From assembly GCF_001988955.1 (NCBI RefSeq), contig NZ_CP014263.1, forward strand, positions 3,938,001-4,002,000: a stretch of DNA of 64,000 nucleotides, in the 5' to 3' direction. This document shows positions 19,227 to 37,480 of the stretch, one piece after another; position 1 is the stretch's first letter, and the number at the start of each line of letters is the position of its first letter. The notes beneath the pieces were generated by a model. The model was not told the DNA's origin. It did not search any database and saw only the letters and a list, made by a program, of their open reading frames with translations. The stretch comes from Spirosoma montaniterrae. Lineage in GTDB: Bacteria; Bacteroidota; Bacteroidia; Cytophagales; Spirosomataceae. A program made the position numbers and the translations under genes.

Positions 19227-20561
19227 ATGAAACATGTTTTCTTGGTGGGTCTATGCGTTTTATCCATCAGCGCAGCAGTGGCCCAGACCAACGTTGGCAC
19301 TGTCACACAGGTAGGCAACAGCCTGACAGGCAACATAGGTCAGACGGGCACCGGGCTAACCGGCGTAGTAAGCCAGACGGCCAGCAATCCTATAACCAGT
19401 GCTAATAATTCGGGTATTATTTCCCAAACAGGCACTAACCACAATGCGCTGATCGAGCAAAATAATGGATCGACGTATAACAAAGCGTTGATTACGCAGA
19501 GCGGTTCGTCGTCGGGCAACGTGGGCTATATTACGCAGAGCAACGGCAGCGGTGGGTCGTCGGCCAGTTTGGGCAACACGGCAGCTATTGACCAGGACGG
19601 AGCCGCCAACCGGGCGGGCATCTTCCAGGACGGAACCAACACGACAACCAACGCAGCCGAAATCTGGCAGGCGGGTGATAACAACGGACGACCTACTGCC
19701 GGGGCACGGGGCGACGTGTATATCGACCAGTCAGGATCGACCAGCAACCGGGCCGAAGTTTACCAGGGCGACGATACAAGAAATGGCACCGTTATCGGTA
19801 TCGCCGGTACAGCCAGCAGCAACGGCGCACAAATCGACCAGCAGGGCGGTAGTCAGTCGAATACTGCGGTTGTGCGGCAGTTCAGCGATAACAACAACGC
19901 CCGCGTTCGGCAGGACGGTCCCAACAGTCAAAGCAACGTAACGACGATTACGCAGGATGGCAACGGCAATAATACGGCCTACGTTGATCAGGGTGGATCT
20001 GAGGGGTACGACAGCAGAAACAATCAGGCCACCATTGTGCAGGCCGGTCAGAGCAGCACGGCCACCGTACAGCAGTTTTATTATGCCCAGAACGGGATTG
20101 TAACCATCACACAGGGAGCCGACGGTTCGGGCAATAGTGCATTGGCCGTTCAGTTCAACACCAGTGCGGAGAGTAACACGATCAGCATTGGCCAGAATGA
20201 AACCAGCATGGGTATGGGCAACGTAGCGATTGTCTTGCAGGGTACTACCTCTCCCTTCAGCCCCACGTCGGGCGGCAACCGGGCTACGATTTCGCAGGAA
20301 GACAGCTTCAATTATACAGGGTTGTTTCAGACGGGGCAAACGAATACGGCAATCATCAGCCAGGCTGGTAATGGCAACGCCGTAACGTCGTTGACCCGCG
20401 ACAATCCGCTCGATTCCAATCTGCCGAACGTGGCCGTGCAAGATGGCACCGGCAACCGCATGGACGTTGGTCAGCAGGCAAATGCAGGCATTGCCAATAC
20501 TGCCAACATAATACAGACAGGTGTAAATCAGACAACGTTTATCCGGCAAACGGGCAATTAG
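19227..20561 (+). CDS. Curlin-repeat (CsgA-like) amyloid subunit, 444 aa
   Basis: Signal peptide of about 20 residues ending near AAVAQ, then curlin repeats throughout: about 20-24-residue units with the Q-x-G-x2-N-x-A-x-[IV]-x-Q pattern (GNSLTGNIGQTGTG, NTAAIDQDGAANRAGIFQDG). E. coli CsgA has five such repeats in 151 aa; this protein has roughly eighteen. An aromatic unit, AEIWQAGDNN, lies near residue 145, and the QGDDTR motif shared with four paralogues lies near residue 180. It ends in FIRQTGN, lacking the NGVTP tail of most paralogues. Expected to be secreted unfolded through CsgG and to polymerise outside the cell. First gene of the curli locus. Confidence 0.9.
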   Translation: MKHVFLVGLCVLSISAAVAQTNVGTVTQVGNSLTGNIGQTGTGLTGVVSQTASNPITSANNSGIISQTGTNHNALIEQNNGSTYNKALITQSGSSSGNVGYITQSNGSGGSSASLGNTAAIDQDGAANRAGIFQDGTNTTTNAAEIWQAGDNNGRPTAGARGDVYIDQSGSTSNRAEVYQGDDTRNGTVIGIAGTASSNGAQIDQQGGSQSNTAVVRQFSDNNNARVRQDGPNSQSNVTTITQDGNGNNTAYVDQGGSEGYDSRNNQATIVQAGQSSTATVQQFYYAQNGIVTITQGADGSGNSALAVQFNTSAESNTISIGQNETSMGMGNVAIVLQGTTSPFSPTSGGNRATISQEDSFNYTGLFQTGQTNTAIISQAGNGNAVTSLTRDNPLDSNLPNVAVQDGTGNRMDVGQQANAGIANTANIIQTGVNQTTFIRQTGN

Positions 20562-20690
20562 TAACCCTTCGGGCTAATACCTTACGTAATGGCTTCGATT
20601 AGCTAACCGTTTAGTCAATATAAATCGTACGAGCTGACTTTCAAACCAGTAATTTACTGGACGGTCACTCTCCCCTTGCCTCAATTTGTT

Positions 20691-20698
20691 TAGGTTTG
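20691..20698 (+). promoter_or_regulatory. TAnnTTTG-type -7 box upstream of the 718-aa curlin gene
   Basis: TAGGTTTG matches the Bacteroidota -7 consensus TAnnTTTG and lies 66 bp before the start codon at 20765. No convincing -33 TTTG sits at the usual 19-bp spacing, so strength is uncertain. Confidence 0.4.
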
Positions 20699-20764
20699 CC
20701 CACCAGATCGACTAATCGTATCTGGTGGGTTTTTCTTTACATTTTTACTAAACCACAAAAGCAC

Positions 20765-22921
20765 ATGAAGAAACTTTTCTTTTGGAGCTTATTGGCCCTT
20801 CCTCTATCCACGGCCATTGCCCAAAACGTCTCAACCATCACGCAAACTGGTCTGTCTCAGACCGGAGTAGCCGCGCAATCGGGTACCAGTTTAACATCGG
20901 TCATTACGCAGGTCGGTGATCAGACGGGCGGTTCGCCTAATGCCTTCAACACCGCTGCCACAAGTCAGACCGGAACCGGCAGTACTGCCACCATCTCCCA
21001 GAGTAAAGGAACTGTAGTTAACTCTCGCTACAATCAGGCGGCTATTACACAAACCGGCACCAGCCAAACCGCTACCATCAATCAGAACGCCAGTGGCGGC
21101 AGCGGGTATCGCGGTACGACCGGCGCAAACTCACCGGTCAATCTGGGCAACTACGCCACCGTGGGACAGGCAGGATCGGGCAATTCAGCGGTTATCAGCC
21201 AGACTGCATTAGCGAACAGCAACTTTGCCACCACAAACCAGAACGGCAGCGGCAACCAGGCCAGCACGAATCAGGATGTTAGCACCAACAACCGGGCTGA
21301 GATTACGCAGGGCAGTTCCGTTAGCGCGAACAACAACCGGGCAACAGTTCTTCAGGACGGCCTTACCACGATTGGCAACGATGCATTCGTAACGCAAACC
21401 AGCAATGGCAACACGGCTACCGTTACACAAAACAACGTGAGTGCCAATAACACAGCGACCGTTTTGCAGGATGGTTCGCTGGGCCAGAACGTGGCAACGG
21501 CAACGCAGAATAACATTAGCAACCGCAACGAATCGCTCATCACGCAGTCGGGTGGCAGCAATACCGCAACTACTACCCAAACCGATGTGAGCAACGATAA
21601 CGAGGCTACGATTACGCAGACGGGCAATGGCAACCGGGCAACATCGGGTCAGAATAACGTTAGCAGCGACAATGTTCTGACCATTACGCAAAGTGGTAAC
21701 AGCAACACCGCCACCTCCAGCCAGACGGAGTATAGCAGCGGCAACGAAACGACAATTACACAGAGCGGCAATGCTAACCGGGCTACCACCAGCCAGAACG
21801 GTTCGGGAGTTTTGCGGCCCAGCGAAGATAACGACGTAACGATCTCGCAGATTGGCAACAACAACGCAGCTTCCACCAGTCAGAACGGTGCCAGCCTCGA
21901 TAACGACATCTCGGTTACGCAGGGTGGCAACAATAACCTCGCAACGCTCACCCAAAACGGTGCTTCTGCGCTGGAGATCAGCCGCGAAAACACGGCAACG
22001 GTAACGCAGGGTGGCAACAGCAACACGGCCACCACCAGCCAGAACGGTAATAGCCGCGACAACGAAACAACCATCGACCAGTCGGGCAATAGCAACCGCG
22101 CCACCGTGGCACAAAATGGTAGCAGCCTAACCCGGCCCAGCCGCGATAACATAGCAGCCATTACACAAAGTGGTAGCAGCAATACGGCCACCACGAGCCA
22201 GAACGGCAATAGTCTGACCAACGTAGTAACGGTTACGCAGAGCGGTAATACAAACCGGGCTACTGTAAACCAGGATGGTAATTCAACGACTCGCGCCAGC
22301 CGTCAAAACAACGCCACAGTAACGCAATCGGGCGCGGGTAACGTAGCTACGATTAGCCAGAACGCAGGCGGCAACCGCGATGCCCGACTCAATGGGGCTA
22401 TCATTGAGCAGCTTGGCACTAACGGCATTGCCACCATCACCCAGAACGAGACCCGCAACAACAAAGGGTTGATTACGCAGGGACTTAGCGGCACGGGCAA
22501 CCAGGCTACGATCACGCAGTATAACTCAACGGCAGGCAACTCGGCTACCATCACGCAGAACATTACGTCGGCAGGCAGCAACAACACGGCGGTGGTGACG
22601 CAGGGCTTTAACACCGCTACGGTTTCTGATAACAACATTGCCACGGTTAGTCAGGAAGGTAGCTCGAACTCGGCCCGACTATTGCAACTCCGCAATAACA
22701 ATACGGCTACCTTCTCTCAGGTGGGCGATGGCAACGTGATTCGGGGCTTGGATACAGCGGCTGACCCCCTCACGGCTCTTCAGGAAACGACGTCGGGTAT
22801 TATTGGCAACTCAGCCATTATCAACCAAACCGCCGGTGGCGGGGTCGCCAACACCGCCAAGTTAGGGCAGGTTGGCATTGGCAACACAACCGTTATTACG
22901 CAAACCGGTATGATGCCGTAA
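20765..22921 (+). CDS. Giant curlin-repeat amyloid subunit, 718 aa
   Basis: Start ATG 20765 (MKKLFFWSLLALPLSTAIAQ), which gives a clean signal peptide; the longer frame upstream has none. The mature protein has roughly thirty curlin repeats, extremely regular, such as NNATVTQSGAGNVATISQN. From about residue 280 to 540 there is a higher-order period of about 45-50 residues, in which blocks containing LRPSEDN, LEISREN, LTRPSRDN and TRASRQN recur between standard repeats. It lacks the Trp/QGNDxR central module and ends ITQTGMMP. If folded like CsgA it would be a very long single-chain beta-solenoid. Confidence 0.92.
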   Translation: MKKLFFWSLLALPLSTAIAQNVSTITQTGLSQTGVAAQSGTSLTSVITQVGDQTGGSPNAFNTAATSQTGTGSTATISQSKGTVVNSRYNQAAITQTGTSQTATINQNASGGSGYRGTTGANSPVNLGNYATVGQAGSGNSAVISQTALANSNFATTNQNGSGNQASTNQDVSTNNRAEITQGSSVSANNNRATVLQDGLTTIGNDAFVTQTSNGNTATVTQNNVSANNTATVLQDGSLGQNVATATQNNISNRNESLITQSGGSNTATTTQTDVSNDNEATITQTGNGNRATSGQNNVSSDNVLTITQSGNSNTATSSQTEYSSGNETTITQSGNANRATTSQNGSGVLRPSEDNDVTISQIGNNNAASTSQNGASLDNDISVTQGGNNNLATLTQNGASALEISRENTATVTQGGNSNTATTSQNGNSRDNETTIDQSGNSNRATVAQNGSSLTRPSRDNIAAITQSGSSNTATTSQNGNSLTNVVTVTQSGNTNRATVNQDGNSTTRASRQNNATVTQSGAGNVATISQNAGGNRDARLNGAIIEQLGTNGIATITQNETRNNKGLITQGLSGTGNQATITQYNSTAGNSATITQNITSAGSNNTAVVTQGFNTATVSDNNIATVSQEGSSNSARLLQLRNNNTATFSQVGDGNVIRGLDTAADPLTALQETTSGIIGNSAIINQTAGGGVANTAKLGQVGIGNTTVITQTGMMP

Positions 22922-22993
22922 TGAGTTGACAGCCTGACTAATTTACGGCAGATCGTTCTACTACCGCTTAATAATGTTAGGTTGCTCAGAGTT

Positions 22994-23056
22994 ACAAATC
23001 TCCATTTCGCCAGCCTGAAGGCAATACCTTCACCTACGAAATGGAGATTTGTTTAT
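22994..23056 (+). terminator. Rho-independent terminator after the 718-aa curlin gene
   Basis: Perfect 16-bp arms (acaaatctccatttcg, 22994-23009, against 23037-23052) with a 27-nt loop, followed by a T-rich stretch. It sits in the 377-bp gap between the 718-aa and 131-aa curlin genes. The rest of the gap is AT-rich and holds the promoter at 23195-23224. Confidence 0.8.
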
Positions 23057-23194
23057 TAATCGGTTTAAAGCTCTCATAATCAATTAGAAGCAGTTAGTAT
23101 TTTTACTTAAGTAAGTCTACCATTTATTGACCTTTTCCGTGTCTTTTTATGAATTTATCTTTGTCTTCTTACTGAAAATCTATTAAAAGGTAGG

Positions 23195-23224
23195 TTGACG
23201 TAAATAATTCCAACAGTACATTTG
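23195..23224 (+). promoter_or_regulatory. Bacteroidota-type promoter for the 131-aa curlin gene
   Basis: TTG (23195-23197), 19 bp, then TACATTTG (23217-23224), fitting the TTTG-N19-TAnnTTTG pattern closely. It lies in an AT-rich leader 75 bp before the start codon at 23299. Confidence 0.55.
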
Positions 23225-23298
23225 CTTACCTATTCAGCCGTAAGGGGCTGCATAAACCTTCTCTTCGTTGCAACCAACGTACTCTCTACGTACTCACT

Positions 23299-23694
23299 AT
23301 GAAGTCTTTCCTTCTCATTGGCATTGCGACCCTTGTTTCGATAGCGGGCTACGCGCAGAATTCAGCAGTTATCAACCAATCGGGCGGTGGTCAGGTAGCC
23401 GTCTCGCAACAGGGTAGCGGCAATACGTCGGTTATCAATCAATCAAATCCCCGTCCGGGCAATACAGCCGTTATCAATCAGTCGGGCGCGGGCAACGTTG
23501 CCACGGTCAGCCAGGGCGGCAGCGCGGGCGAACCCGGTCAGTCGGTCAGTGTGTCGCAGTCGGGTCATACCGAGACGCATATCAACCAGACCGACGGCAG
23601 CAATTCCATTGTTGTCAATCAATCAGGAGAGCCGGTTCCGGCAACTTCCAAAAAGAAAAGTCGCGCCAAACGCCGGACCGACCGTCCGCGTTAA
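23299..23694 (+). CDS. Short curlin-repeat protein with strongly basic tail, 131 aa
   Basis: Signal peptide ending near GYAQ, then four to five compact curlin repeats (NSAVINQSGGGQVAVSQQG, NTAVINQSGAGNVATVSQGG). The last 20 residues leave the repeat pattern and become polybasic: KKKSRAKRRTDRPR at the very C-terminus. Its size resembles E. coli CsgA and CsgB. CsgB uses a divergent, charged last repeat to stay on the cell surface, so this protein is a candidate nucleator or anchor binding lipopolysaccharide, DNA or another polyanion. It has its own promoter and is preceded by a terminator, so it is independently expressed. Confidence 0.87.
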   Translation: MKSFLLIGIATLVSIAGYAQNSAVINQSGGGQVAVSQQGSGNTSVINQSNPRPGNTAVINQSGAGNVATVSQGGSAGEPGQSVSVSQSGHTETHINQTDGSNSIVVNQSGEPVPATSKKKSRAKRRTDRPR

Positions 23695-23822
23695 TCAGGC
23701 AGCGTTCTGCAACTCCTTCACCCTAATAGTCTTACTTACCCAGCCGAAATTGTGTGGGTATTACACGTTTTGTGACTTCTCTCTACAAATTGCTTTCTTT
23801 AATTTAAATTTTTCTCCACAAA

Positions 23823-25430
23823 ATGCAAAAACTACTTCTATCCGGTATAGCTACACTGTTTGCAGCAGTTGGCTTTGCCCAATCGAACACCAGCACAGTA
23901 AATCAGGATGGTACCAGTCAGACCGCCAGCGTCAGTCAGGCCGGTTCGAGCCTTACCTCCACCGTCAGCCAGGTCGGTCCTGGTTCTAACTCCGCCAATT
24001 CGGGCATTAGCATTCAGATTGGAACGGGTCATCAACTGACCATTAACCAGAACAACTCAAGCTACAACCGGGCAGGTATTTGGCAGGAAAACACAAGCGG
24101 GCCAGGCAGCAACACCGCGACGATTAACCAGAATGGTAACAGCGGCAACGGAGCCACGGCTCTGCGCCCGAACGACACCCGCACAACCACTCCCAACGCT
24201 CTGTTGGGTAACTGGGCGGGCGTGAAGCAGATTGGTTCGGGCAATAACGGTACTATCAATCAGAACGACGCGGGCACTGTCAACAACTTTGCCGAAACCT
24301 GGCAGTGGGGCACGGGCAATAGTGCCACCACGAATCAGAATGGCGGAGCCAAAGACAACAAAGCCGAGGTTTTTCAGGGCAACGACAAACGGGAATCCTC
24401 GCCCGATGCCGAAGGGGCAACAGATGTTAATGTAACGGGTAATACGGCCAGCATCGATCAGTCGGGCAGCGTTCTCAATACGGCTAAGGTTAAGCAATTC
24501 AGTAATACCAATACGGCCAGTGTTGAGCAGTTGGGTGCTTTCAGCAGCAGCAACACTGCTTTCATTCAGCAGGGCGCAACAGGAGCTTCGTCGGCGGTGG
24601 CGGGTGGTAATACAGCGCTGATTCAGCAGAACGGCAACACCAGCCAGGGAAACTCGGCAACGGCGTTGCAAACCGGAACGGGTGGTTTAGCGCAGGTAAT
24701 TCAGGTCAACAACAGCAACAACAACATCGGTTTTGTGCAGCAGATTGCCGGTACTGGTTCGAGCGGCTACGTTCGTCAGATTGGCGACGCGCAAAGCAAC
24801 AGCGGCACCATTATTCAGACGGGCGATTTTCATAACGCCCTTGTTGAGCAGGGAACTGGCTCATCGTCAAATTTCGGCACCATCAATCAGGGCATTGCCG
24901 GCGTAACCCTGTCAGACCATGCTACGGCTTATATCGGGCAGGTTAGCGGAGCCAGTTCGGGCACGGCTACCATCAACCAGAATCAGGCAAGCGTGGGCAG
25001 CTACAACAAAGCCTTTGTTCTGCAAACCGGTGTTACAACGGGCAACCTCGCCACCGTCACGCAGGAGAATTCATACAACACGGCTGGGCTATTGCAGACA
25101 GGCGCAGGCAGCAACACGGCTACGTTTGGTCAAACCGGCGGTTACAACGTGATTAACGGCCCGGCCTCGGTCAACAGTGGTTTCTTCGGCTCGCTGGACG
25201 CGGCCCGTCAGGATGGCAACGGCAACAAAATGACCGTAACGCAGAATGCCGGTACGTTCGGTACAATGACGACCAGCAACACGGCTACGCTCAGCCAAAC
25301 GGGTACCAGCAACACACTCTCGGTCGATCAACTCATTACTACGGCGGGTGGCAGCAACTTAAGTACCATCAATCAAAACGGCATGATGAACTCCGTAACC
25401 GTGACGCAGGTCAACGGCGTAACGCCCTAA
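23823..25430 (+). CDS. Curlin-repeat amyloid subunit, 535 aa
   Basis: Signal peptide ending near VGFAQ. The opening repeats (NTSTVNQDGTSQTASVSQAG, SSLTSTVSQVG) are nearly identical to those of the 552- and 540-aa paralogues. The central module follows the group pattern: GNWAGVKQ near residue 128, NFAETWQWG near 155, AEVFQGNDKR near 181, then an acidic non-repeat loop and VNVTGNTASIDQ. Roughly twenty curlin repeats in all. The C-terminus ends TVTQVNGVTP. Expected substrate of the CsgG channel. A terminator follows. Confidence 0.9.
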   Translation: MQKLLLSGIATLFAAVGFAQSNTSTVNQDGTSQTASVSQAGSSLTSTVSQVGPGSNSANSGISIQIGTGHQLTINQNNSSYNRAGIWQENTSGPGSNTATINQNGNSGNGATALRPNDTRTTTPNALLGNWAGVKQIGSGNNGTINQNDAGTVNNFAETWQWGTGNSATTNQNGGAKDNKAEVFQGNDKRESSPDAEGATDVNVTGNTASIDQSGSVLNTAKVKQFSNTNTASVEQLGAFSSSNTAFIQQGATGASSAVAGGNTALIQQNGNTSQGNSATALQTGTGGLAQVIQVNNSNNNIGFVQQIAGTGSSGYVRQIGDAQSNSGTIIQTGDFHNALVEQGTGSSSNFGTINQGIAGVTLSDHATAYIGQVSGASSGTATINQNQASVGSYNKAFVLQTGVTTGNLATVTQENSYNTAGLLQTGAGSNTATFGQTGGYNVINGPASVNSGFFGSLDAARQDGNGNKMTVTQNAGTFGTMTTSNTATLSQTGTSNTLSVDQLITTAGGSNLSTINQNGMMNSVTVTQVNGVTP

Positions 25431-25447
25431 CAACGTCTTTACGCGTA

Positions 25448-25484
25448 CCCGAAGCCGTTGGTCAGAATGGCTTCGGGCTTTTTC
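25448..25484 (+). terminator. Rho-independent terminator between curlin genes
   Basis: Stem cccgaagcc (25448-25456) against ggcttcggg (25469-25477), 12-nt loop, then ctttttc. It separates the 535-aa and 526-aa subunit genes only 87 bp apart. Confidence 0.85.
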
Positions 25485-25516
25485 AGTTCACACAAAAAAT
25501 ATAACTACTCTCTTTT

Positions 25517-27097
25517 ATGAACAAGTGGCTTCTATCCGGCATGGCTACGCTTGCATTTGCAGCGGTCAGCTTTGCCCAAACTAACACCGCGACCGTGTCG
25601 CAAACGGGAAACGCCAATTCGGCCTCGGCTGTGCAAGGAGGATCGGGTAACACGTCTACCATTACTCAGGGTGGTCCACTGGGGCCGAGTTCGCAACCCA
25701 GTAGCCTTAATAACAAAGCCTTGTCGGACCAATCTGGTAAAAACCACACAGCAGTTATTAATCAGAACGGCGACAGCTACTTCCGCCCGTCGAAGTTCAA
25801 TGAAGCCTCGATTACGCAAAGTGGCACAGCCACATCAGGCAACTCGGCTACAGTTAACCAAAACAGCAGCGGTGGCAGTGCTTACCGGGGCAGCAATGGG
25901 AATTTAGCCGTTGGCGATGGTAACAACGCGATTGTGATTCAGGATGGCACCAACACGGCAGTGGTGAATCAGAACGATGTTCCGGCAAATAGCAGTTCTA
26001 AAAATCTGGCAACCGTTACGCAGTATGGCAGCAACACAGCTACCGTTACGCAAAACGGTGGTACGGATAACTGGTCAGATGTAAAGCAGGGTAGCAGTAG
26101 CCTGCCTGCAACCGGCAACAAAGCTATGGTTGATCAAACCAGTGGCGCTACCAACGATGCCTTCGTTACGCAGAACAGCAACAGCAACTATGCAGATGTT
26201 CAGCAGGGGGCCACAGGTACAACCAGCAACACGGTAAGCATCACACAAGGCGATGCACTGGCTGTTGGTACGTCGAGTAGCAACACAGCCATCGTAGATC
26301 AGGTAGATGGTACGAACACCGGCAATCTCGCGACTATCCTGCAAACGGGTCAGAATGGCCTTGTTAATATCAAGCAGGACAATAACTCGGGCAGCAATCA
26401 GGCGTTCATCACGCAAGTGTCGGGTACTGGCAACCGCGTAGAGGGTCAGCAGTCGTTTAACTCGAACGTCAATCTTGTGACAGTTACGCAGTATGGCAAT
26501 AACAACCAGGTTGGGTATGAGCAGGTGTTTGGTGCAAACAATACGCTCACTGTAAATCAGGGGTCGGCAGCAACAACCAGTACAAACAACCGGGTGCAAA
26601 GCTATCAGAAAGATTACAGCGACTATGGCACCATCACAATCAACCAGAACGTGACAACATCGGGAGGTGACAACATTGTTGTTGCTGAGCAAGGCATTAG
26701 CGGCCCACCCCGTTCGGTAAGCAACGTTGCCACTTTCAGCCAGGAAGGCAGCTTTAACGAAGCACGCTTGCGCCAGACTGGGGTAGGTAGCAATACGGCT
26801 ACCGTTACGCAGACCGGGAATTATAACAAACTCACCGGCCCACAGGTGGTTCTGTTCCCTGGTGGCAATGGTGCCCTGCAAGATGGTTCGATGAACAAAA
26901 TGACCGTCACGCAGGCTTCGGGTTCGCTCGCTACGGCATTGGTTAACAACACGGCGAATCTGAGCCAGACGGGCACCAGCAACACGCTGTCGGTTAATCA
27001 ACTGATTAGTTCGGCAGGCGTGGGCAACCTGAGCACCGTTACGCAGAATGGCATGATGAATCAGGCCATCGTGCAGCAGAACGGTGTGACGCCTTAA
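25517..27097 (+). CDS. Curlin-repeat amyloid subunit, 526 aa
   Basis: Signal peptide ending near VSFAQ, then about twenty curlin repeats. It differs from its neighbours: the opening reads NTATVSQTGNANSASAVQGG, and the central region has SDVKQGSSSLPATGNKAMVDQ where others have the QG[ND][DE]xR module, so the Trp/acidic module is lost or was never present. The last quarter again matches the group (LSQTGTSNTLSVNQLI, then GNLSTVTQNGMMN) and ends QQNGVTP. The mix suggests recombination between paralogues. A terminator lies on each side. Confidence 0.9.
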   Translation: MNKWLLSGMATLAFAAVSFAQTNTATVSQTGNANSASAVQGGSGNTSTITQGGPLGPSSQPSSLNNKALSDQSGKNHTAVINQNGDSYFRPSKFNEASITQSGTATSGNSATVNQNSSGGSAYRGSNGNLAVGDGNNAIVIQDGTNTAVVNQNDVPANSSSKNLATVTQYGSNTATVTQNGGTDNWSDVKQGSSSLPATGNKAMVDQTSGATNDAFVTQNSNSNYADVQQGATGTTSNTVSITQGDALAVGTSSSNTAIVDQVDGTNTGNLATILQTGQNGLVNIKQDNNSGSNQAFITQVSGTGNRVEGQQSFNSNVNLVTVTQYGNNNQVGYEQVFGANNTLTVNQGSAATTSTNNRVQSYQKDYSDYGTITINQNVTTSGGDNIVVAEQGISGPPRSVSNVATFSQEGSFNEARLRQTGVGSNTATVTQTGNYNKLTGPQVVLFPGGNGALQDGSMNKMTVTQASGSLATALVNNTANLSQTGTSNTLSVNQLISSAGVGNLSTVTQNGMMNQAIVQQNGVTP

Positions 27098-27107
27098 CTG
27101 CTATCTA

Positions 27108-29002: not shown

Positions 29003-30625
29003 ATGAAGCAGATAACCCTTACTTTGTCACTTGCCTTAGCGGCCATAACGGCATGGGGGCAGACTAACACATCCACGATTAGTCAGACGGGCGTTAGTCA
29101 GCAAGCCAACGTTAGTCAGACCGGTTCGGCACTGACGAGCGTGATTAGTCAGGTTGGTACGCCTACGTCGAATACGGGCAATGTGGGGTTGGTTATTCAG
29201 TCAGGTACCGGGCATATTTTGTCAATCTCTCAGAACGGGTCGAACTATAACCGGGCGGGCGTTACCCAAACGGGTACGTCGCCGGGCAGCAACACCGTTA
29301 CGATTGCCCAGAACAATAATGGTAACGGCAACACAAGTCTGCGTAGTGCCGACCCGGCTACGTCGGCGGTTGGCAACGGCAACTGGGCCGGAGGCTGGCA
29401 ATTGGGCAGCAGTAACTCCATTCGGATCCGGCAGAACAACGCCGGCACAACCCAGAATTTTGCCGAAGCCTGGCAGCAGGGAACCAGCAATGAAGCCGAT
29501 ATACAGCAAAGCCGGGGCGTTGATAACCGGGCCGAGATTTTTCAGGGTAACGAACAGCGGGGAGGTGGCCCGGCAGCCGGTAGCCTGCCTACGGTAAACG
29601 TGACCGGAAATGTCGCTGATATTGACCAGGAGCGTGGTCTTCGTAACGATGCTTCTATCCGGCAGTTCAGCAATAATAACCGGGGCGAAGTAAATCAGAA
29701 CGCCATTACCAGCACCGATAACCTGGCAACGATTCAGCAGGGCGATGGCACCGACCCGTCTGGTCAGCGTGAGAACACGGCGATCATCGAGCAGAACAAC
29801 ATCAGTAACCTCAACATTGCCAACATACTTCAATTAGGTAGTGAAAGCGAGGCCGAAATAAACCAGGATGGCGTTAGTGGTAGTGGAGGCTCTTCGACCA
29901 ACATAGCGTCTATCACACAAACGATTGGCAGTGACGAAAACGAGGCCCGTATCGACCAAAGCAGTGGCAATAGTCTGCTCTCGGAACGCAATAACGCTAC
30001 CATTGTTCAGAAAGGCGAAGACGGACGTACTCACATCCGGCAAACCATTGCTGCTGCTGATAGCAAAGGGAGCATTGAGCAGGGTACGGGTAGCGACAAC
30101 GACCGGGCTTACATCTGGCAGGGCCGCACATCGTTCGCTACGGCCACCATCACGCAAAACCTGACCGCTACGGGCCGGGACAACATCGCCAGCATTCAGC
30201 AGGGTAACGGCACCGTTGGGCAGGGCAGCAGTTTATCGGCCACAATAGCGCAGGAAGGCAGCCGCAACGACACCCGCCTGCTGCAAATTGGTTCGGCCAG
30301 CAGTGCTACGGTATCGCAAACCGGTAATAATAACGTGGTGACTGGCCCCGGCTTAGGCACTACGCCATCGGGGGGCGAAGGCACGCTACTCGGCGGTTCG
30401 TATGCCGTTCAGAATGGGAGCAGTCACCAATTGACCATTACACAAACATCGCCGGGCGGAGGAAATACAAGCATTTTCAATACTGCCGATGTTCAGCAGT
30501 TGGGTACGGGCAATGTATTGATTGGTATGCAGACAGCTCAAACGGCGGGCAACCTGATGACCGTTCGGCAAGATGGCAATACCAATCAGGCGTTCATCCA
30601 GCAAAACGGTATCGTTACACCTTAA
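29003..30625 (+). CDS. Curlin-repeat amyloid subunit, 540 aa
   Basis: Start ATG 29003 chosen because it begins the signal peptide (ending near TAWGQ). Opening repeats NTSTISQTGVSQQANVSQTG. Central module: GNWAGGWQ near residue 126, NFAEAWQQG near 151, AEIFQGNEQR near 176, then VNVTGNVADIDQ. Compared with its neighbours it carries more Glu and Arg between repeats (NEARIDQSSG, LSERNNA). The C-terminus ends QQNGIVTP. Probably co-transcribed with the 552-aa gene and closed by a strong terminator. Confidence 0.9.
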   Translation: MKQITLTLSLALAAITAWGQTNTSTISQTGVSQQANVSQTGSALTSVISQVGTPTSNTGNVGLVIQSGTGHILSISQNGSNYNRAGVTQTGTSPGSNTVTIAQNNNGNGNTSLRSADPATSAVGNGNWAGGWQLGSSNSIRIRQNNAGTTQNFAEAWQQGTSNEADIQQSRGVDNRAEIFQGNEQRGGGPAAGSLPTVNVTGNVADIDQERGLRNDASIRQFSNNNRGEVNQNAITSTDNLATIQQGDGTDPSGQRENTAIIEQNNISNLNIANILQLGSESEAEINQDGVSGSGGSSTNIASITQTIGSDENEARIDQSSGNSLLSERNNATIVQKGEDGRTHIRQTIAAADSKGSIEQGTGSDNDRAYIWQGRTSFATATITQNLTATGRDNIASIQQGNGTVGQGSSLSATIAQEGSRNDTRLLQIGSASSATVSQTGNNNVVTGPGLGTTPSGGEGTLLGGSYAVQNGSSHQLTITQTSPGGGNTSIFNTADVQQLGTGNVLIGMQTAQTAGNLMTVRQDGNTNQAFIQQNGIVTP

Positions 30626-30647
30626 ACCAGTTTTTGTTCGCCACTTA

Positions 30648-30688
30648 ACAGCCCGCTACAACTTCTGTAGCGGGCTGTTGGCTTTTTA
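30648..30688 (+). terminator. Rho-independent terminator after the 540-aa curlin gene
   Basis: Perfect 13-bp arms (acagcccgctaca, 30648-30660, against 30666-30678), 5-nt loop, then a T-rich run. Confidence 0.9.
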
Positions 30689-30752
30689 TTAAAGTTTACC
30701 AGATGGTGGCTGAAATTTATCAGACGGAAGGTGGCAAACATAAGTACGTATC

Positions 30753-30760: not shown

Positions 30761-30809
30761 TTGATAATGTACCGGAGTTAAGGTTACAATCAGCAAACAC
30801 TGCATTTTT

Positions 30810-32528
30810 ATGAAAAGAATACTTCTTTCGACAATAGCTGTCTTATGCTTCGTGGGCAGTTATGGGCAGAACAACACAGTGACCATTACGCAGGGCGGCA
30901 CCAGCAACAATGTCTCCGCTGTGCAGGGTGAAGACATACCGGGCTTTCCGGGAACCGCATCACAGGGTGCTCAAAACCTGACCACTGAAATTAGCCAGTC
31001 GTCTAACGGCGATATCAGCGAAAACAACAACAATCTTGGCATTACCTTTCAGGTAGGTAGAAATCATAGTGCTATAATCCGACAGAATGGCACAGCGACC
31101 TACAACCGGGGGGCCATCAGTCAGATGAACACTGACGGCAGCGGGGGCGGCAACGAAGCCATTATTCGGCAAAACAACAGCGGGGGAAGTGAAATGCAAA
31201 CCGGTACCCGAACCAATATCAACCCCGACGCAGGAAACTGGGCAGGCGTTTGGCAAAACGGCAGACAAAACGATGCGCTAATCAATCAAAGCCGTCGAGA
31301 TGACGGCTGTGGTTGTGGCGAAGAACCGCCCATTGACAATGATGAGCCTGTTCCAACGGGTTTCTTCGAAGGCGGGAACGTTTCGGGTAACTTTGCTGAA
31401 ACATGGCAACAGGGGAACAACAACACGGCCCGCACACGCCAGCAGAATAGCCGACAAAATATGGCTGAAATTTTTCAGGGGAACGACCGGCGTCCGGTGG
31501 CAAATGATGAAGGGCTGACCGATGTTTTTGTGAAAGACAATGAAGCTCGTATCAACCAGATATACAGTCAACAGAACGTTGCCAGGGTTAAGCAGTTGAG
31601 CAACGATAACTGGACCCGTGTACTGCAAAACGGGCCCAGTAGCACCAGTAACACAGCGGTAGTTACACAGGGCAACGGTGTTAATCTGAACAATTCGGGC
31701 GGCAACCGGGCACTCGTTGAGCAAACGTATAATGCCGAAAATAACGTTGCCAACATTCTGCAAACGGGTAAAGACAACCGGGCCGAGATAGAACAGTATT
31801 CGTTTGCAGGCAGCATCAGTAACACGGCTTCGATTACTCAAACGTTTGGCGGTAGCAACAACGAAGCTGAAATTTATCAGGGCGGCATTGCAGAACCGAA
31901 CGCCACTGAAAACAATATGGCCTCTATTTTACAGCGCGGCAACGATGGTATTGCTATCATCTGGCAGTACCGGGGTTCGGACAATAACACTGCCGACATT
32001 ACGCAGGGCCGCAATTCAACCAGCGACCGGGCTTACATTTCGCAGTACGAATCAACATCGGGGTCGGCTACCATTGTGCAGAATCAAACCGCCACCGGTG
32101 GCGAAAACGTGGCAGAAATCGAACAGACCGGCAACGAGAACATTGCCAATTTTCGGCAGGAGGGCAATAACAACAGAGCCGGTGTGCTTCAATTTGGCGA
32201 CGGACCAGGTCGGAACCGTGGCCGCTTCCGGCAGACGGGCGACAACAATACTATTCAGGGGCCGGGCGAAGCCAATAATTTCAATGAGTTGGGAGCAGGC
32301 GGGTATGCCGTGCAGGAAGGTCGCCGTAATGATATGCAGGTAGATCAGACATCGACAGGTTCGTCATTTGCCAATACGGCGGTTCTTTTCCAGAACGGTC
32401 GTAACAATGATATTATACTCAACCAAACCACCAACTCCGGGGCCACGGGAGGTAACTTGAGTACGATTAGCCAGAACGGTAATTTTAATTCATCGACTAT
32501 TACACAAGTCAACGGTGTAACGCCTTAA
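30810..32528 (+). CDS. Curlin-repeat amyloid subunit with Cys-containing acidic insert, 572 aa
   Basis: Signal peptide ending near GSYGQ. Repeats are more charged than in the paralogues (NRAEIEQYSF, NEAEIYQGGI). Central module: GNWAGVWQ near residue 141, NFAETWQQG near 194, AEIFQGNDRR near 219. Between the first two lies an insert of about 30 residues containing CGCG (Cys167 and Cys169), an acidic stretch EEPPIDNDEPVP and FFEGGN; these are the only cysteines I see in the mature curlin proteins of this locus. The C-terminus ends TITQVNGVTP. It may be a specialised cap, branch or metal-binding subunit. Confidence 0.88.
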   Translation: MKRILLSTIAVLCFVGSYGQNNTVTITQGGTSNNVSAVQGEDIPGFPGTASQGAQNLTTEISQSSNGDISENNNNLGITFQVGRNHSAIIRQNGTATYNRGAISQMNTDGSGGGNEAIIRQNNSGGSEMQTGTRTNINPDAGNWAGVWQNGRQNDALINQSRRDDGCGCGEEPPIDNDEPVPTGFFEGGNVSGNFAETWQQGNNNTARTRQQNSRQNMAEIFQGNDRRPVANDEGLTDVFVKDNEARINQIYSQQNVARVKQLSNDNWTRVLQNGPSSTSNTAVVTQGNGVNLNNSGGNRALVEQTYNAENNVANILQTGKDNRAEIEQYSFAGSISNTASITQTFGGSNNEAEIYQGGIAEPNATENNMASILQRGNDGIAIIWQYRGSDNNTADITQGRNSTSDRAYISQYESTSGSATIVQNQTATGGENVAEIEQTGNENIANFRQEGNNNRAGVLQFGDGPGRNRGRFRQTGDNNTIQGPGEANNFNELGAGGYAVQEGRRNDMQVDQTSTGSSFANTAVLFQNGRNNDIILNQTTNSGATGGNLSTISQNGNFNSSTITQVNGVTP

Positions 32529-32549
32529 TTGACTTCTGTTATCCTGAAG

Positions 32550-32585
32550 AGGCACCGCTGTTCACTTGCAGTGGTGCCTTTTTTG
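32550..32585 (+). terminator. Rho-independent terminator after the 572-aa curlin gene
   Basis: Stem aggcacc-gctg against cag-tggtgcct around a short loop (32550-32578), followed by six Ts. It isolates the fibre-subunit genes from the downstream nucleator/secretion genes. Confidence 0.85.
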
Positions 32586-32720
32586 TATACGGATGTTTTC
32601 TATACTGGTTAAACAGACTGTGCCACCACCGCCCAATTAATTTACCTGCCGTTTACTACGATGGCGATTATTTTTCAGGCAAAAGACAGTATCTTTCGAC
32701 TGAAAAGTTTTACTAAAGTT

Positions 32721-33332
32721 ATGAAAAGTCTTTTTGTCTGCTTCGTTTGCTTGCTCAGCATCACGGCGCATGCCCAAAATCAGGCTCCAACCACAACAGC
32801 ACCGCTCAGCAACACGCTCGACGCGTTCTGGAACTTTAATCCAACGCCGGGTGTGGGGCAGGCAGTTTTGTCGCTCAGCGAAACCACCATTCCGGGCGTG
32901 TCGTCGGCAATCAGCGACATTATTATCAACCAAAGTGGTAGTAATAACGCTGCCAACCTCAGTGCCAGCCCACAGAACCGGCTTCAGCTCAATCAGAGCA
33001 ACGATGGCAACCGGGCCGACGCCCTGCTGACTGGCAGCGGCAACAGCCTGTTGCTGAACCAAACCGGCGGAGGCAACTCAATTGGCATTGACCTTACCGG
33101 CAGCGGCAATAATTATCTGATCTCGCAGGACGGGGGCGACAAAGCCCAGTTTTCGGGTATCAATCAGGCAAATACGCGCATGGAACTGGTACAGAAGAGC
33201 GGTGCCAACACGTTCGTTACTGATAATTCGACGCTGGTAAATCCGTTTACGAGTGGCGTTCAAAACCTGCGCATCGAACAGTCGGGCGGGGCGTCGATGA
33301 CGGTTCGGCATGGTGCTCTGCTAACACCCTGA
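32721..33332 (+). CDS. Divergent curlin-repeat protein, CsgB-like nucleator candidate, 203 aa
   Basis: Start ATG 32721 gives a signal peptide ending near AHAQ. Residues 20-70 are non-repetitive (LDAFWNFNPTPGVGQ). Then five or six loose curlin units follow: DIIINQSGSNNAANL, LQLNQSNDGNRADAL, SLLLNQTGGGNSIGI, NYLISQDGGDKAQF and LRIEQSGGASMTV. Size, divergence and its position 5 bp before csgE parallel CsgB, the minor subunit that starts CsgA polymerisation. It ends RHGALLTP, a weakened form of the paralogues' tail. It is probably the first gene of a csgE-F-G operon. Confidence 0.8.
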   Translation: MKSLFVCFVCLLSITAHAQNQAPTTTAPLSNTLDAFWNFNPTPGVGQAVLSLSETTIPGVSSAISDIIINQSGSNNAANLSASPQNRLQLNQSNDGNRADALLTGSGNSLLLNQTGGGNSIGIDLTGSGNNYLISQDGGDKAQFSGINQANTRMELVQKSGANTFVTDNSTLVNPFTSGVQNLRIEQSGGASMTVRHGALLTP

Positions 33333-33337
33333 TACCG

Positions 33338-33862
33338 ATGAATGTACTCCGCATTTTTCTGTTTGCTGGCCTGTTACTGACTGGTTTTTTTTGCCAGGCA
33401 CAACCCGATCCTGAATTGGACGGTCAGTTGATCGAAGAAACGATGAGCGAGGCCGTTCTGACCGACGAAGGTACTGAGACACTACTGCTCGACAATACCC
33501 GCTCAAAAATTGGCCGCGACTTCTACGACGCGTTCTTTCGTCGATACGCCGAACTGCCCAAAGCAATCAGCCCACTAATGCCCGCCGATACCACGCAGAA
33601 AATAGGGCCGAACGTAGAGCTTGACGTAAACGCGTTCATAGTAACGATTGACGAAACACCCGCTTTCGGGGTTGGTACTACAATTATTTCGGTCACGCTC
33701 AACGATCAGGTCATCTGGCAAAACTATGTACAGTTTCGGGCCGAAGTTATTGAACTGTATGCTTTCAATGCGGCAGAGGTTGCCAATCAATATGTACTTA
33801 ATTACCAGGACGTGCAACGCTCGTTAGAGAGCGAAGACCAGCGGGGCAGCGGTATTTTTTAG
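33338..33862 (+). CDS. csgE: Curli secretion adaptor CsgE
   Basis: 174 aa with a signal peptide ending near FCQAQ. The mature part matches CsgE: TRSKIGRDFYDAFFRRY near residue 60, LDVNAFIVTIDETPAFG, TIISVTLNDQVIWQNYVQFRAE-like strands, and a final NYQDVQ. In E. coli CsgE forms a nonameric cap on the periplasmic side of CsgG and guides subunits into the pore. Here it starts 5 bp after the CsgB-like gene and is followed by csgF and csgG, as in csgDEFG but without csgD. Confidence 0.92.
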   Translation: MNVLRIFLFAGLLLTGFFCQAQPDPELDGQLIEETMSEAVLTDEGTETLLLDNTRSKIGRDFYDAFFRRYAELPKAISPLMPADTTQKIGPNVELDVNAFIVTIDETPAFGVGTTIISVTLNDQVIWQNYVQFRAEVIELYAFNAAEVANQYVLNYQDVQRSLESEDQRGSGIF

Positions 33863-33907
33863 CCAACCTGACGCCCTCTTGTCAACACTACGACCCATAA
33901 ACTACTC

Positions 33908-34333
33908 ATGAAAAAACTGTTACTTTCGGTGCTGTTACTGGCTGGCATCAGTGCTTTCGCTTCGGCACAATCGTTTACGTACACCCCCCGCAATCCGGCT
34001 TTTGGGGGCAACACCTTCAACTACTCGTGGCTGCAAAGCTCGGCACAGGCACAGGACCGCACCACCGACCCGGCTCAGCGACGCAATCAGGCGGCCTCTG
34101 GGCGCACAACGAATTCAACCCTCGATGCGTTTTCACAAAGCATTCAGAATCAGCTACTCAGCCGCCTGACCCGCGACCTGATCGGCAACCAGTTTGGCGA
34201 GGGCGAATTACGGCCCGGTACGTACCGCTTTGGCGATTATCAGGTTGAAATCACCAACGCGGCTGATGGCGTTCAGGTACGTATCGTAGATGGGCGCGGT
34301 GGCGAAACTACCCTGACCATTCCTTATTTTTGA
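33908..34333 (+). CDS. csgF: Curli assembly factor CsgF
   Basis: 141 aa with a signal peptide ending near ASAQ. Residues just after cleavage read SFTYTPRNPAFGGNTFNYSW and then LQSSAQAQ, the diagnostic CsgF segment that in E. coli (RNPNFGGNP, SAQAQ) inserts into the CsgG barrel and narrows the pore. The C-terminal domain (YQVEITNAADGVQVRIVDG) would lie outside, coupling secretion to nucleation. It sits 45 bp after csgE. Confidence 0.93.
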   Translation: MKKLLLSVLLLAGISAFASAQSFTYTPRNPAFGGNTFNYSWLQSSAQAQDRTTDPAQRRNQAASGRTTNSTLDAFSQSIQNQLLSRLTRDLIGNQFGEGELRPGTYRFGDYQVEITNAADGVQVRIVDGRGGETTLTIPYF

Positions 34334-34407
34334 TTGTCTGGAACGTGATGCTGGCATAGCGGGGCAACTCGGCCCTTCCTTTATTCGTTTATCCGCTTTT
34401 TTTACCA

Positions 34408-35934
34408 ATGAATTTTAGAGTATATCCTACCATGCGGCTGTTGCTGCTGAGCAGCCTGGCTGGTATTGCATCGGGTTGTATGAATTATTTTCATCAACCT
34501 ACCCAAACCCGCCGGGCACGCTTAGGCGAAGAAACCCCGGCAACGGTCGAATTGCGCGGCCTGCCGGTTGCCAAAGAAAAGGTTGTGGCTGCCGTTTATA
34601 AGTTCCGCGATTTGACAGGCCAACTGCGGCAAACCGAAACTGGCGCGGGTTTCTCGACAGCCATTACGCAGGGTACGACCAACATCCTGCTCAAAGCACT
34701 TGAAGAAAGCGGCTGGTTTGTACCCATCGAGCGCGAAAACGTTAGCAACCTGCTCAACGAACGCAAGATTGTGCGGTCGAGCGTGGCGCAGTTCAAAGAA
34801 GGCGAAAACCTCCCTCCGCTGCTCTTTGCGGGTATTATTCTCGAAGGGGGTGTAGTGTCGTATGATTACAACTTCGTTACCGGCGGGGGTGGCCTTCGCT
34901 ACTTCGGAGCCGGGGCTTCGACGCAGTATCGACAAGACCGCGTAACGGTTTATCTGCGGGCCGTTGCCACCAAGTCGGGTAAGATTCTGAAAACGATCTA
35001 TACCTCGAAAACGATTCTGTCGCAAACCGTAGACGCCAGCCTGTTCCGGTATGTTTCGTTCAAGCGGCTGCTGGAAGCCGAAACCGGCCTCACCACCACC
35101 GAACCAGGTCAGATGGCCGTAACGGAAGCTATTGAAAAAGCTGTTCATTCGTTGATTATCGAAGGGGCGAAAGAAGGGCTGTGGGCACCCGAAGATAAAG
35201 CCCAGGCCCAGATGAAAACGGTTATTGACGCCTACGAGCAGGAGAAAACCGAAATGGCGCAGATCGACGTGTACAACGCCCGCCGAAACTTCGACGCGCC
35301 CCGCATCAGTCTTCAGCCTTATGCCGGACTTTGGCAGTATGCTGGTGATTATCAGCGCAAAACACCACGCTTAGGTTACGGTCTGTCTGCCGACATTTAC
35401 ATTACCCCGTCGTTTGGCTTACAAATCAACGGGGGCGTCGGTGCGCTCGAAAGTCAGAATGCATTCAGTCAGAACATATCGACGCTGGAAGGCAACCTGA
35501 TTTTTCGTCCCATTCCCAATCAACGCTGGACACCCCTGCTCTTTGCGGGTGGTGGCATGGTATCGCGCCGGGGTACTGGCCCCGTCGAGTTACGCGGCAA
35601 CCGATTTGCGCAAATCAACGGGGGCGTGGGCGTACAGTACTCGGCTAACCGGACTATCGGATTCCGCTCCACACTGTCGATGAATCAGTTGCTTACCGAC
35701 GAATTCGACGGGCGCACCATCGGGCTTCGCAATGATTATTACCTGCGCGGCACGCTCGGATTGGTTTTCCATATCGGACGGTTTCGCCCGAAGTTCAGGA
35801 CCGTGACGCAGGCGAACAAACCAGCCTCTGCAACGGCCCGACCAACCGCGCAGCCAGCCCGGCCAACTACGCAGCCAGCCCGACCAGCCACGCAACCAGC
35901 TACCACACCTCAAACGGCTCCCCGGCAGCCGTAG
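34408..35934 (+). CDS. csgG: Curli secretion channel CsgG with beta-barrel-like C-terminal extension
   Basis: 508 aa from ATG 34408 (ATG 34432 is possible and leaves the lipobox intact). The lipobox ASGC puts the acylated Cys at residue 24. Residues 30-280 are CsgG: VVAAVYKFRDLTGQ, TQGTTNILLKALEESGWF, ERENVSNLLNERKI, LLFAGIILEGGVVSYDYN, and YLRAVATKSGKIL. E. coli CsgG is 277 aa and ends here. This protein adds about 170 residues of amphipathic strands like an OmpA-type barrel (SLQPYAGLWQYAGDY, SFGLQINGGVGALES, IGFRSTLSMNQLL, YLRGTLGLVFHIG) and a 40-residue tail of ARPTTQP repeats. The extension could surround or regulate the nonameric pore. Confidence 0.92.
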   Translation: MNFRVYPTMRLLLLSSLAGIASGCMNYFHQPTQTRRARLGEETPATVELRGLPVAKEKVVAAVYKFRDLTGQLRQTETGAGFSTAITQGTTNILLKALEESGWFVPIERENVSNLLNERKIVRSSVAQFKEGENLPPLLFAGIILEGGVVSYDYNFVTGGGGLRYFGAGASTQYRQDRVTVYLRAVATKSGKILKTIYTSKTILSQTVDASLFRYVSFKRLLEAETGLTTTEPGQMAVTEAIEKAVHSLIIEGAKEGLWAPEDKAQAQMKTVIDAYEQEKTEMAQIDVYNARRNFDAPRISLQPYAGLWQYAGDYQRKTPRLGYGLSADIYITPSFGLQINGGVGALESQNAFSQNISTLEGNLIFRPIPNQRWTPLLFAGGGMVSRRGTGPVELRGNRFAQINGGVGVQYSANRTIGFRSTLSMNQLLTDEFDGRTIGLRNDYYLRGTLGLVFHIGRFRPKFRTVTQANKPASATARPTAQPARPTTQPARPATQPATTPQTAPRQP

Positions 35935-35968
35935 TCTTATTTCTTAAACATTGCTTTTGTTTTCACCA

Positions 35969-37480
35969 ATGAAGTCTCTTTTTTATCTGACTGTACTGCT
36001 CGCAGGGTTGTTCGGCATCTGGAGTTGCAACGAAGACACCTACGTAGAACCCCTTCAGCTAACCAGCGTTCGGGGCAGAGTTGTATTGAGTGCCAACCAA
36101 CGGCCCGTTGGCAGTGCCGTAGTTCGGCTAACACCCGGCGGTCGGCAGGTAACTACCGATTCGGCAGGCACATTCCGGTTCGACAGCGTGCTGGTTGGCA
36201 ACTATACCGTACAGGTGTCTAAAGCGGGCTATGGCACGCAGGTTGCCACGGTGGTCGCCAGCGTCGATACGTCGCCAATTATAACCATTCAGCTTACCGA
36301 CGACCGAACGCAGAACCAACCGCCATCGGCTCCGACGCTGGTGGCTCCTACCCTGAGTACCAGTGCCGTGTCTACCACCACGACGCTAAAATGGACAGCA
36401 ACCGACCCGAACCGCGATACGCTGACGTATAGCGTGCTGCTGTTCCGCTCCGGCACAACCACGCCTGCCCAGTCGTTTACGGGGCTGCGTACCGACTCGC
36501 TCGTGGTTAGTTTAGACTACAACACCAATTATCTGTGGCAGGTGATTGTCAGCGATGGCATTGCTACCGTCAACGGTCCGGTCTGGTCGTTCCGCACGGT
36601 GGCCTTCCCCGATTATAGCTACGTTTTCACGCGCCGGATCAACGGACAGTTTCAGGTTTTTGGGGCCAATGCAACCGGCGACGCGGCTCAGTTTACCCGC
36701 GAAGGCAGCAACTGGCGACCTACCGTTAGCCCCAACCGCCAATTGATTGCCTTTATCTCGAACCGGGATACCGACGCGCAGCTATATATTATGAATGCCG
36801 ACGGCAGCAACCAACGCCGGGTTACGAACGTACCCATTTCCGGCGTATCGCTCGCCGATGTGTCGTTCGCCTGGTCGCCCGATGGTACGCAACTGCTTTA
36901 CCCCGTCAACGACCGGCTCTATGCCGTTCGATTAGATGGTACGGGGCTGCGTATTGTGGCACAGGCGGCTCCGGGTCGGCTGTTTGCCGGCTGCGACTGG
37001 ACGGCGCAGGGCAACCGCATTGTGGCACGTACTACTGGTCCTAACGTATATGACAACGATATTTCGATTTACCCCGCCGATGGTGGTACGCCAACGTCGG
37101 TGCTGGCCCGGAGAGCCAACCGCGTCGGCAATCCGGTCTTCTCGGTGAGTGGGGGGCAACTGTTATTCACCATCGACATCAGCGGTTTCCAGAACGAACA
37201 GGGCCGTCAGCTCGACGCGCGGATGTTTATTCTTGACCTGACCACAGCCGCGCTGACCGACCTTTCGCTGACGCAGAGCGGCAATAATAACCAGATTCAG
37301 AACAAACCCGCTGGCACCAACGACCTCGATCCACGGTTCTCGCCCAATGGCGCGCAGGTGATTTTCACCAACACCGACAACACCGGCAACGGTCCACGTG
37401 CCGTGTTCACGTCGGACGTTGATGGCCGGAACCGGCGGCAACTTTTCACCACCGCCGAAATGCCTTTCTGGCGGCAATAA
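35969..37480 (+). CDS. Lipoprotein with CarboxypepD_reg-like, FnIII-like and TolB-like propeller domains
   Basis: 503 aa from ATG 35969; the lipobox GIWSC puts the acylated Cys at residue 19. Residues 30-110 look like a carboxypeptidase-regulatory-like beta sandwich (VRGRVVLSANQRPVGSAVVRL). Residues 115-215 resemble a fibronectin type III module. From 215 to the end are WD40-like/PD40 blades (SPNRQLIAFISNRDTDAQLY, WSPDGTQLLYPV, FSPNGAQVIFTN). It follows csgG by 34 bp and closes the operon, so it may be a surface accessory of the curli system. The last propeller blade contains LTQSGNNNQIQN, a curlin-like string. Confidence 0.8.
   Translation: MKSLFYLTVLLAGLFGIWSCNEDTYVEPLQLTSVRGRVVLSANQRPVGSAVVRLTPGGRQVTTDSAGTFRFDSVLVGNYTVQVSKAGYGTQVATVVASVDTSPIITIQLTDDRTQNQPPSAPTLVAPTLSTSAVSTTTTLKWTATDPNRDTLTYSVLLFRSGTTTPAQSFTGLRTDSLVVSLDYNTNYLWQVIVSDGIATVNGPVWSFRTVAFPDYSYVFTRRINGQFQVFGANATGDAAQFTREGSNWRPTVSPNRQLIAFISNRDTDAQLYIMNADGSNQRRVTNVPISGVSLADVSFAWSPDGTQLLYPVNDRLYAVRLDGTGLRIVAQAAPGRLFAGCDWTAQGNRIVARTTGPNVYDNDISIYPADGGTPTSVLARRANRVGNPVFSVSGGQLLFTIDISGFQNEQGRQLDARMFILDLTTAALTDLSLTQSGNNNQIQNKPAGTNDLDPRFSPNGAQVIFTNTDNTGNGPRAVFTSDVDGRNRRQLFTTAEMPFWRQ

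Follow-up and report, generated by a model that had tools for sequence, protein, structure and literature searches.

An enlarged curli locus in Spirosoma montaniterrae with nine curlin genes, a predicted CsgG-fused barrel and a propeller lipoprotein

Curli are a model functional amyloid, known mostly from enterobacteria. What kind of curli system, then, is encoded by a locus with nine curlin genes in Spirosoma montaniterrae, a member of the Bacteroidota, and which of its features set it apart? We analysed a stretch of 64,000 nucleotides (NZ_CP014263.1, positions 3,938,001 to 4,002,000; hereafter the window, whose coordinates are used below) from the 5.8 Mb single-contig genome. On the + strand, 19227-37480, nine curlin genes are followed by csgE, csgF, csgG and the gene of a propeller lipoprotein, here called prop. 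A preliminary description had reported nine curlin-repeat proteins of the lengths and positions listed here, on this strand, with the four other genes downstream. That observation is confirmed: profile searches matched every window protein concerned, all nine curlins exceeding the curated Pfam cut-off for the curlin repeat (PF07012, 20.7 bits), CsgE, CsgF and CsgG exceeding theirs, and the lipoprotein having CarboxypepD_reg and PD40 matches. The features are as follows, with curlin lengths counted from ATG starts.

19227-20561, + strand: cur1, long curlin, 444 amino acids (PF07012, 62.3 bits)
20765-22921, + strand: cur2, long curlin, 718 amino acids (PF07012, 203.9 bits, 12 stretches)
23299-23694, + strand: cur3, short curlin, 131 amino acids, cationic C-terminal tail of net charge +7 (PF07012, 22.1 bits)
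23823-25430, + strand: cur4, long curlin, 535 amino acids, opens the inserted block (PF07012, 65.4 bits)
25448-25477, + strand: terminator-like hairpin 3' of cur4, 12 pairs, then a T run
25517-27097, + strand: cur5, long curlin, 526 amino acids (PF07012, 96.2 bits)
27279-28937, + strand: cur6, long curlin, 552 amino acids (PF07012, 80 bits)
29003-30625, + strand: cur7, long curlin, 540 amino acids (PF07012, 73.9 bits)
30645-30681, + strand: terminator-like hairpin 3' of cur7, 16 pairs, then a T run
30810-32528, + strand: cur8, long curlin, 572 amino acids, closes the inserted block (PF07012, 85.5 bits)
32721-33332, + strand: cur9, csgE-linked minor curlin, 203 amino acids, degenerate repeats (PF07012, 21.6 bits)
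33338-33862, + strand: csgE (PF10627, 46.7 bits; cut-off 25)
33908-34333, + strand: csgF (PF10614, 149.1 bits; cut-off 25.8)
34408-35934, + strand: csgG, 508 amino acids, pore domain and predicted C-terminal barrel (PF03783, 197.1 bits; cut-off 20.8)
35969-37480, + strand: prop, propeller lipoprotein (CarboxypepD_reg and PD40 propeller matches, Pfam)
37509-37555, + strand: terminator-like hairpin 3' of the prop gene

The 131-residue cur3 and the 203-residue cur9 exceed the PF07012 cut-off barely. We also counted the strict strand motif N-x-h-x-h-x-Q: every long curlin, seven in all, holds 17 to 30 copies, against at most four in 500 composition shuffles of each. Cur3 has four such motifs against a shuffle maximum of one; cur9 has two, equal to its shuffle maximum and so at the level of chance, and with a looser motif it reaches seven against a maximum of six, marginally over chance. 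All nine curlin frames are unbroken, and by eye their N-termini resemble signal peptides. These sequence features support the reading that the locus encodes an entire curli (type VIII) secretion core together with many long subunits.

Many long curlins have been described before. According to the available portion of Dueholm 2012 (PMC3521004), up to six csgA/B homologues occur in Spirosoma, curlins have as many as 529 amino acids and 22 repeats, and the loci of S. linguale, a species of the same genus, hold several unlike curlins; a genome of our own set (G035) has six curlins in two stretches (L047 and L052), the number given there for Spirosoma. Compared with S. linguale, the window has one csg locus with nine curlins, and three orphans lie elsewhere in the genome. 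Sleutel 2023 (PMC10192328), in its available sections, gives 4 to 62 repeats per curlin, with genomes becoming fewer as the copy number rises towards 14 and the highest number being 30; curlins are modelled there as beta-solenoids, with models in which curlins of different species dock. The long Bacteroidota curlin R15.5 of Pontibacter korlensis, which forms beta-solenoid fibres (PDB 8c50, Sleutel 2023), matches cur4 at E 1.1e-7, although R15.5 was studied singly and in vitro, its entry having 363 amino acids. The preliminary description thus overstated the case in treating multiple long subunits as distinctive: the available text has them as general outside Enterobacteriaceae, Spirosoma included, and relatives exceed the array both in number (14 curlin open reading frames in G019, over the four fetched stretches L035, L041, L068 and L075) and in length (one curlin of 1639 amino acids in G045). 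The nine-curlin locus belongs to a kind already known, of which it is an enlarged example.

The stronger finding, which the preliminary description did not take up, is that a prop-type lipoprotein and a predicted CsgG barrel are consistent, Bacteroidota-specific features. Like E. coli curli, the locus has CsgE, CsgF, curlin repeats and the pore domain of CsgG, each scoring above its Pfam cut-off. E. coli CsgG, however, has 277 amino acids and no added barrel, whereas the window CsgG has 508 and, by model, a barrel; the window further differs in its lipoprotein and its nine subunits, seven of them of 444-718 amino acids, and the genome in having no CsgC match. Neither the lipoprotein nor a CsgG barrel is mentioned in the portion of Dueholm 2012 available, and a genome-wide survey, as given in the accessible part of a 2025 review (PMC12822426), used models for CsgA/B to CsgH only. 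Our searches of open-licence literature, mostly judged from listings, found no paper on a CsgG-fused barrel in curli and none giving a curli role for prop.

The CsgG pore domain runs from Cys24 to about residue 285, and the solved E. coli CsgG aligns to residues 10-272. A structural model and a fold search place the fused barrel at residues 298-458; by model, the C-terminus is an eight-stranded outer-membrane barrel of the small OmpA/OmpW type, its eight strands closing at the size of OmpA. Every one of the 37 strong loci fetched from the phylum sample had the C-terminal extension. The NCBIfam equivalog for E. coli-type CsgG (NF011731) scored 195.6 bits over residues 10-273, under its cut-off of 505, while the broader Pfam CsgG family matched; identification as the holdfast anchor HfaB was rejected (NF037935, 34.4 against a cut-off of 300). 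Three of the nine genomes with weak CsgF (L113-L115) have CsgG open reading frames of 300-311 amino acids that lack the barrel; a purpose-built csgF profile found no match there, nor was a lipoprotein found in the stretch. In two of these three loci (L113, L114, L115) curlins reach up to 529 amino acids, and the group is perhaps a second curli type within the phylum.

Prop has a presumed lipid-bearing Cys20, a CarboxypepD_reg domain at 33-110, a second beta-sandwich-like part and a TolB-like propeller at about 217-503, the C-terminal part being a beta-propeller by model. It resembles PG1058, a Bacteroidota lipoprotein of type IX secretion that, as far as the source at hand describes it, likewise combines a beta-propeller with a carboxypeptidase-regulatory-like domain. 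However, PG1058 is described there as having TPR and OmpA_C domains and facing the periplasm, whereas prop has neither domain (Pfam, E 0.01) and carries a probable surface-export signal; we accordingly rejected prop as PG1058, which we take to be the protein later named PorE. Prop as TolB of the Tol-Pal system was rejected as well, the cut-off of 343 for NCBIfam TIGR02800 not being reached. PMC4737851 reports, from Armatimonadetes, a CsgG-family gene cluster that includes a secreted protein with four carboxypeptidase-regulatory domains; this is a distant parallel and not prop.

How closely does prop keep company with curli? CsgF was found in 20 of 79 genomes, the studied genome included, and the lipoprotein profile (E 1e-20) matched those 20 and none of the other 59. 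Copy numbers of the two agree save in G021, which has two fragments at the starts of contigs, and curlin repeats were found in the same 14 CsgF-positive genomes among 47 that were searched again. Across a phylum sample CsgF occurred in 50 of 395 genomes, strongly in 41; with the best three candidates per genome scored, 24 of these 41 genomes and no others had the full-length lipoprotein. At a looser threshold (E 1e-12) some lipoprotein match appeared in 130 of the 395, mostly to single common domains. A nearby lipoprotein of prop type accompanies 35 of the 37 strong phylum loci, full-length in 20 and shorter in 15. The short lipoproteins near curli genes, of 134-272 amino acids (L077, L078, L080, L083, L089, L093, L094, L096, L097, L099, L100, L101, L104, L106 and L107), share only the N-terminal part of prop; their place and signal make them likely true orthologues. 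The exceptions are L098 and L110, whose stretches contain no such lipoprotein, that of L110 being truncated where its contig stops; each of the two genomes has a short-form match at another place. In Hymenobacter the lipoprotein is kept by the curli genes though curlins intervene between it and csgG.

The array itself is enlarged relative to its counterparts. Over 88 locus rows (L020 and L079 being one contig), the window has nine curlins and the other counted loci 0 to 6, counts that may be low outside the window as the stretches fetched were mostly about 20 kb and a few shorter. A tandem pair of RraA-like genes at 16248-18329 marks the equivalent chromosomal site in three relatives (L036, L037 and L053), where the matching RraA-like gene is 81-89% identical. 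There the order is long curlins, a short curlin with a cationic tail, the csgE-linked curlin and csgE, with four, four and five curlins, respectively, and the interval between the counterparts of cur3 and cur9, which holds cur4-cur8 in the window, is empty. Pairwise identity within cur4-cur8 is 40-54%. In a tree of 43 rows, cur1, cur2, cur4-cur8, one orphan and one subunit of the closest relative (G002) cluster with support 87/83, the G002 subunit branching beside cur7 (99/63); the tree is shaky, since its branches are long, the composition of cur7 and cur8 was flagged, and the nine-row group has no more than that support. This grouping implies that the expansion is at least partly older than the split from G002 and, with the 40-54% identity, leads us to reject a recent duplication of cur4-cur8. 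In G002 the long subunit is 43-47% identical to cur4-cur8, against 75-78% for CsgF, CsgG and the lipoprotein.

Three orphan curlin genes lie elsewhere in the genome (L061, L062 and L063; 563, 880 and 684 amino acids), a count to be read as at least three since 150 of 175 candidates were scored. The genome thus holds at least 12 curlins alongside a single csgE and a single csgF. Besides the csgG of the locus, another CsgG-family protein with a weaker match is encoded at 3.34 Mb (L118, 3339413-3339940; 74.7 bits, open frame of 683 amino acids). We recognised no csg genes in 19 kb around the orphans, whose neighbours include a histidine kinase, a TonB-dependent receptor and ribosome recycling factor. 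In three other loci (L038, L040 and L052) about 1.1-1.2 kb separates the short cationic curlin from the next long curlin; the idea that this interval of 1.1 kb in L038 conceals a gene was rejected, as the sole open reading frame of at least 80 amino acids that touches it overlaps the next gene.

The curlins fall into three classes: long, short with a cationic tail, and csgE-linked. We measured tail charge as the net charge of the last 25 residues in 116 curlin open reading frames from the window and its relatives (L035-L075, phmmer). It was at least +5 in 20, all of 128-180 amino acids, and between -2 and +4 in the other 96. With the cut set at +4, a cationic-tail curlin is present in 16 of 26 family loci, and the 20 such proteins located outside the window all sit 10-541 bp from another curlin. 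Outside the family (L076-L115) no curlin open reading frame had a tail charge of +5 or more, only one csgE and two csgG. Short cationic-tail curlins such as cur3 are likely anchors or matrix binders. A short curlin adjoins csgE in the window and in 22 of the 25 other family loci, and lies within 20 bp of it in distant loci as well (L026, L081, L082, L084, L090, L092, L103, L109 and L112); none was found beside csgE in Hymenobacter and many phylum-sample loci. This recurring position makes cur9 the best candidate for a nucleator. The NCBIfam CsgB model gave cur3 30, cur9 27.9 and cur4 56.2, far under its cut-off of 165.

Spacing between the curlin genes is 65-377 bp, and only 5 bp separates cur9 from csgE. 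The gaps, with the hairpins after cur4 and cur7, weakly oppose a single transcript, and the cluster is not evidently one operon. The absence of csgC, noted in the preliminary description, extends to the whole genome, in which PF10610 found no match while the E. coli control was positive; periplasmic protection, if needed, must therefore have another source. Its companion remark, that no csgD is visible, applies to the neighbourhood of the locus, beside which no recognisable csgD lies: among the Pfam-scanned open reading frames of the window no LuxR-type gene falls within 10 kb of the curli genes, and the only LuxR-type regulator is a response regulator 10 kb downstream that nothing ties to curli, family assignment being unable to separate CsgD from other LuxR-type proteins. 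That regulator adjoins a TPR histidine kinase (47597-50344, + and - strand, respectively), and an ECF-type sigma factor (Sigma70_r2 and r4) lies 7 kb upstream of the curli genes (11588-12175). As excerpted, Dueholm 2012 (PMC3521004) confines CsgC to Enterobacteriales and Aeromonadales, and finds Bacteroidetes without csgC and, except for Spirosoma, without csgD.

We think it likely that the locus works in curli biogenesis and is of a Bacteroidota type, with divided subunit roles, a ring of barrels and a dedicated lipoprotein. The signal-peptide-like N-termini would take the curlins across the inner membrane by Sec export, CsgE would gate them into a nonameric CsgG pore, and they would leave via CsgF and stack outside as beta-solenoids. 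A second, eight-stranded barrel on each CsgG protomer would place nine small barrels around the nonamer. Prop, at the pore mouth and probably displayed on the surface, would most likely receive or anchor the growing fibre. Long curlins would be the bulk subunits, with a five-gene block added in this lineage; cur9 would nucleate, cur3-type curlins would anchor or bind matrix, and units bounded by hairpins would let subunit mixes vary.

Several points weigh against this picture. It is built from gene and model evidence. The nonamer and the ring are extrapolations based on E. coli CsgG and on a model of the monomer whose pore domain is poor (mean predicted local distance difference test score 64.9, predicted template-modelling score 0.47), and surface display of prop presumes a sequence rule for the export signal. 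The lipoprotein profile (A2) was built partly from positive loci, and the phylum search scored the best three candidates per genome, so that weaker homologues in curli-free genomes may escape it. Within the family, the csgE-linked curlin is missing in three of 26 loci and the cationic-tail curlin was not seen in the stretch in ten (one cut by a contig end), so neither role is essential everywhere. Separate transcription units are a guess, since hairpin-like sites are also frequent within the repeats (41 against 23.5 in shuffles) and promoter-like sites near the subunit genes, including Bacteroidota -33/-7 sites 5' of them, are not commoner than in shuffles.

A more specific form of this picture we offer tentatively, as something we would not yet bet on: that the locus represents a Bacteroidota subtype of curli secretion in which the CsgG barrels and the surface propeller lipoprotein form an exit platform round the pore, which would anchor fibres and perhaps sort subunits, so that one pore could serve a dozen different curlins, with the csgE-coupled minor curlin priming it.

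Alternatively, the nine curlins may be built together into a single heteropolymeric amyloid, or into fibres that differ by condition, as first proposed for this locus; we put this a little short of an even chance, and mixed-fibre co-polymerisation is plausible. The genes share one strand and a common secretion core. Six paralogues (cur4-cur8 and the orphan L061) keep the solenoid register, Gln being invariant in 37 columns and Asn in 24. Their ends belong to the better conserved regions: the opening 45 aligned positions are 52% alike and the closing 45 are 49% alike, against 43% for the middle, and these two end blocks rank 2 and 30 of 451 for conservation. Such ends would mildly support interchangeability, and the published models in which curlins from different species dock point the same way. 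Against this, cur4-cur8 are just 40-54% identical, and the terminator-like hairpins that divide the array suit separate use as well as co-use. It is unlikely, though repeats favour duplication, that neutral tandem duplication accounts for most of the array, with a dosage effect or slow drift and only one or two genes that matter: curlin number does vary from 0 to 6 in other loci and subunits diverge far faster than the machinery (as in G002), but drift would be expected to break frames, whereas all nine are intact with signal-peptide-like N-termini, and in six paralogues the core Gln and Asn columns are invariant after divergence to about 45% identity. That the lipoprotein is an unrelated neighbour, such as a TolB-like or nutrient-binding protein, is very improbable, for although its domains are common and its relatives (best 120 of 262) are named hypothetical, carboxypeptidase regulatory-like, PD40, Tol biopolymer transport or TolB, it co-occurs completely with CsgF in 79 genomes, its full-length form is confined to CsgF-bearing genomes among 395 (best three candidates each), and it stays by the curli genes even in Hymenobacter.

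Elsewhere in the window, a sulfatase with an SGSH C-terminal domain is encoded at 41301-43007 (- strand) and an IS605 OrfB/Cas12f-like (TnpB-type) protein at 45410-46537 (+ strand). Open reading frames antisense to the curlin repeats were taken as by-products of repeat codons, and no RNA families or tRNAs were found in the window.

If our preferred account of a Bacteroidota-type curli locus is right, the phylum-wide accessory lipoprotein and the barrel fused to CsgG would be new parts of the curli machine. With at least 12 distinct curlins and one csgE and one csgF, this genome is a natural setting in which to ask how a single amyloid pore copes with many subunits.

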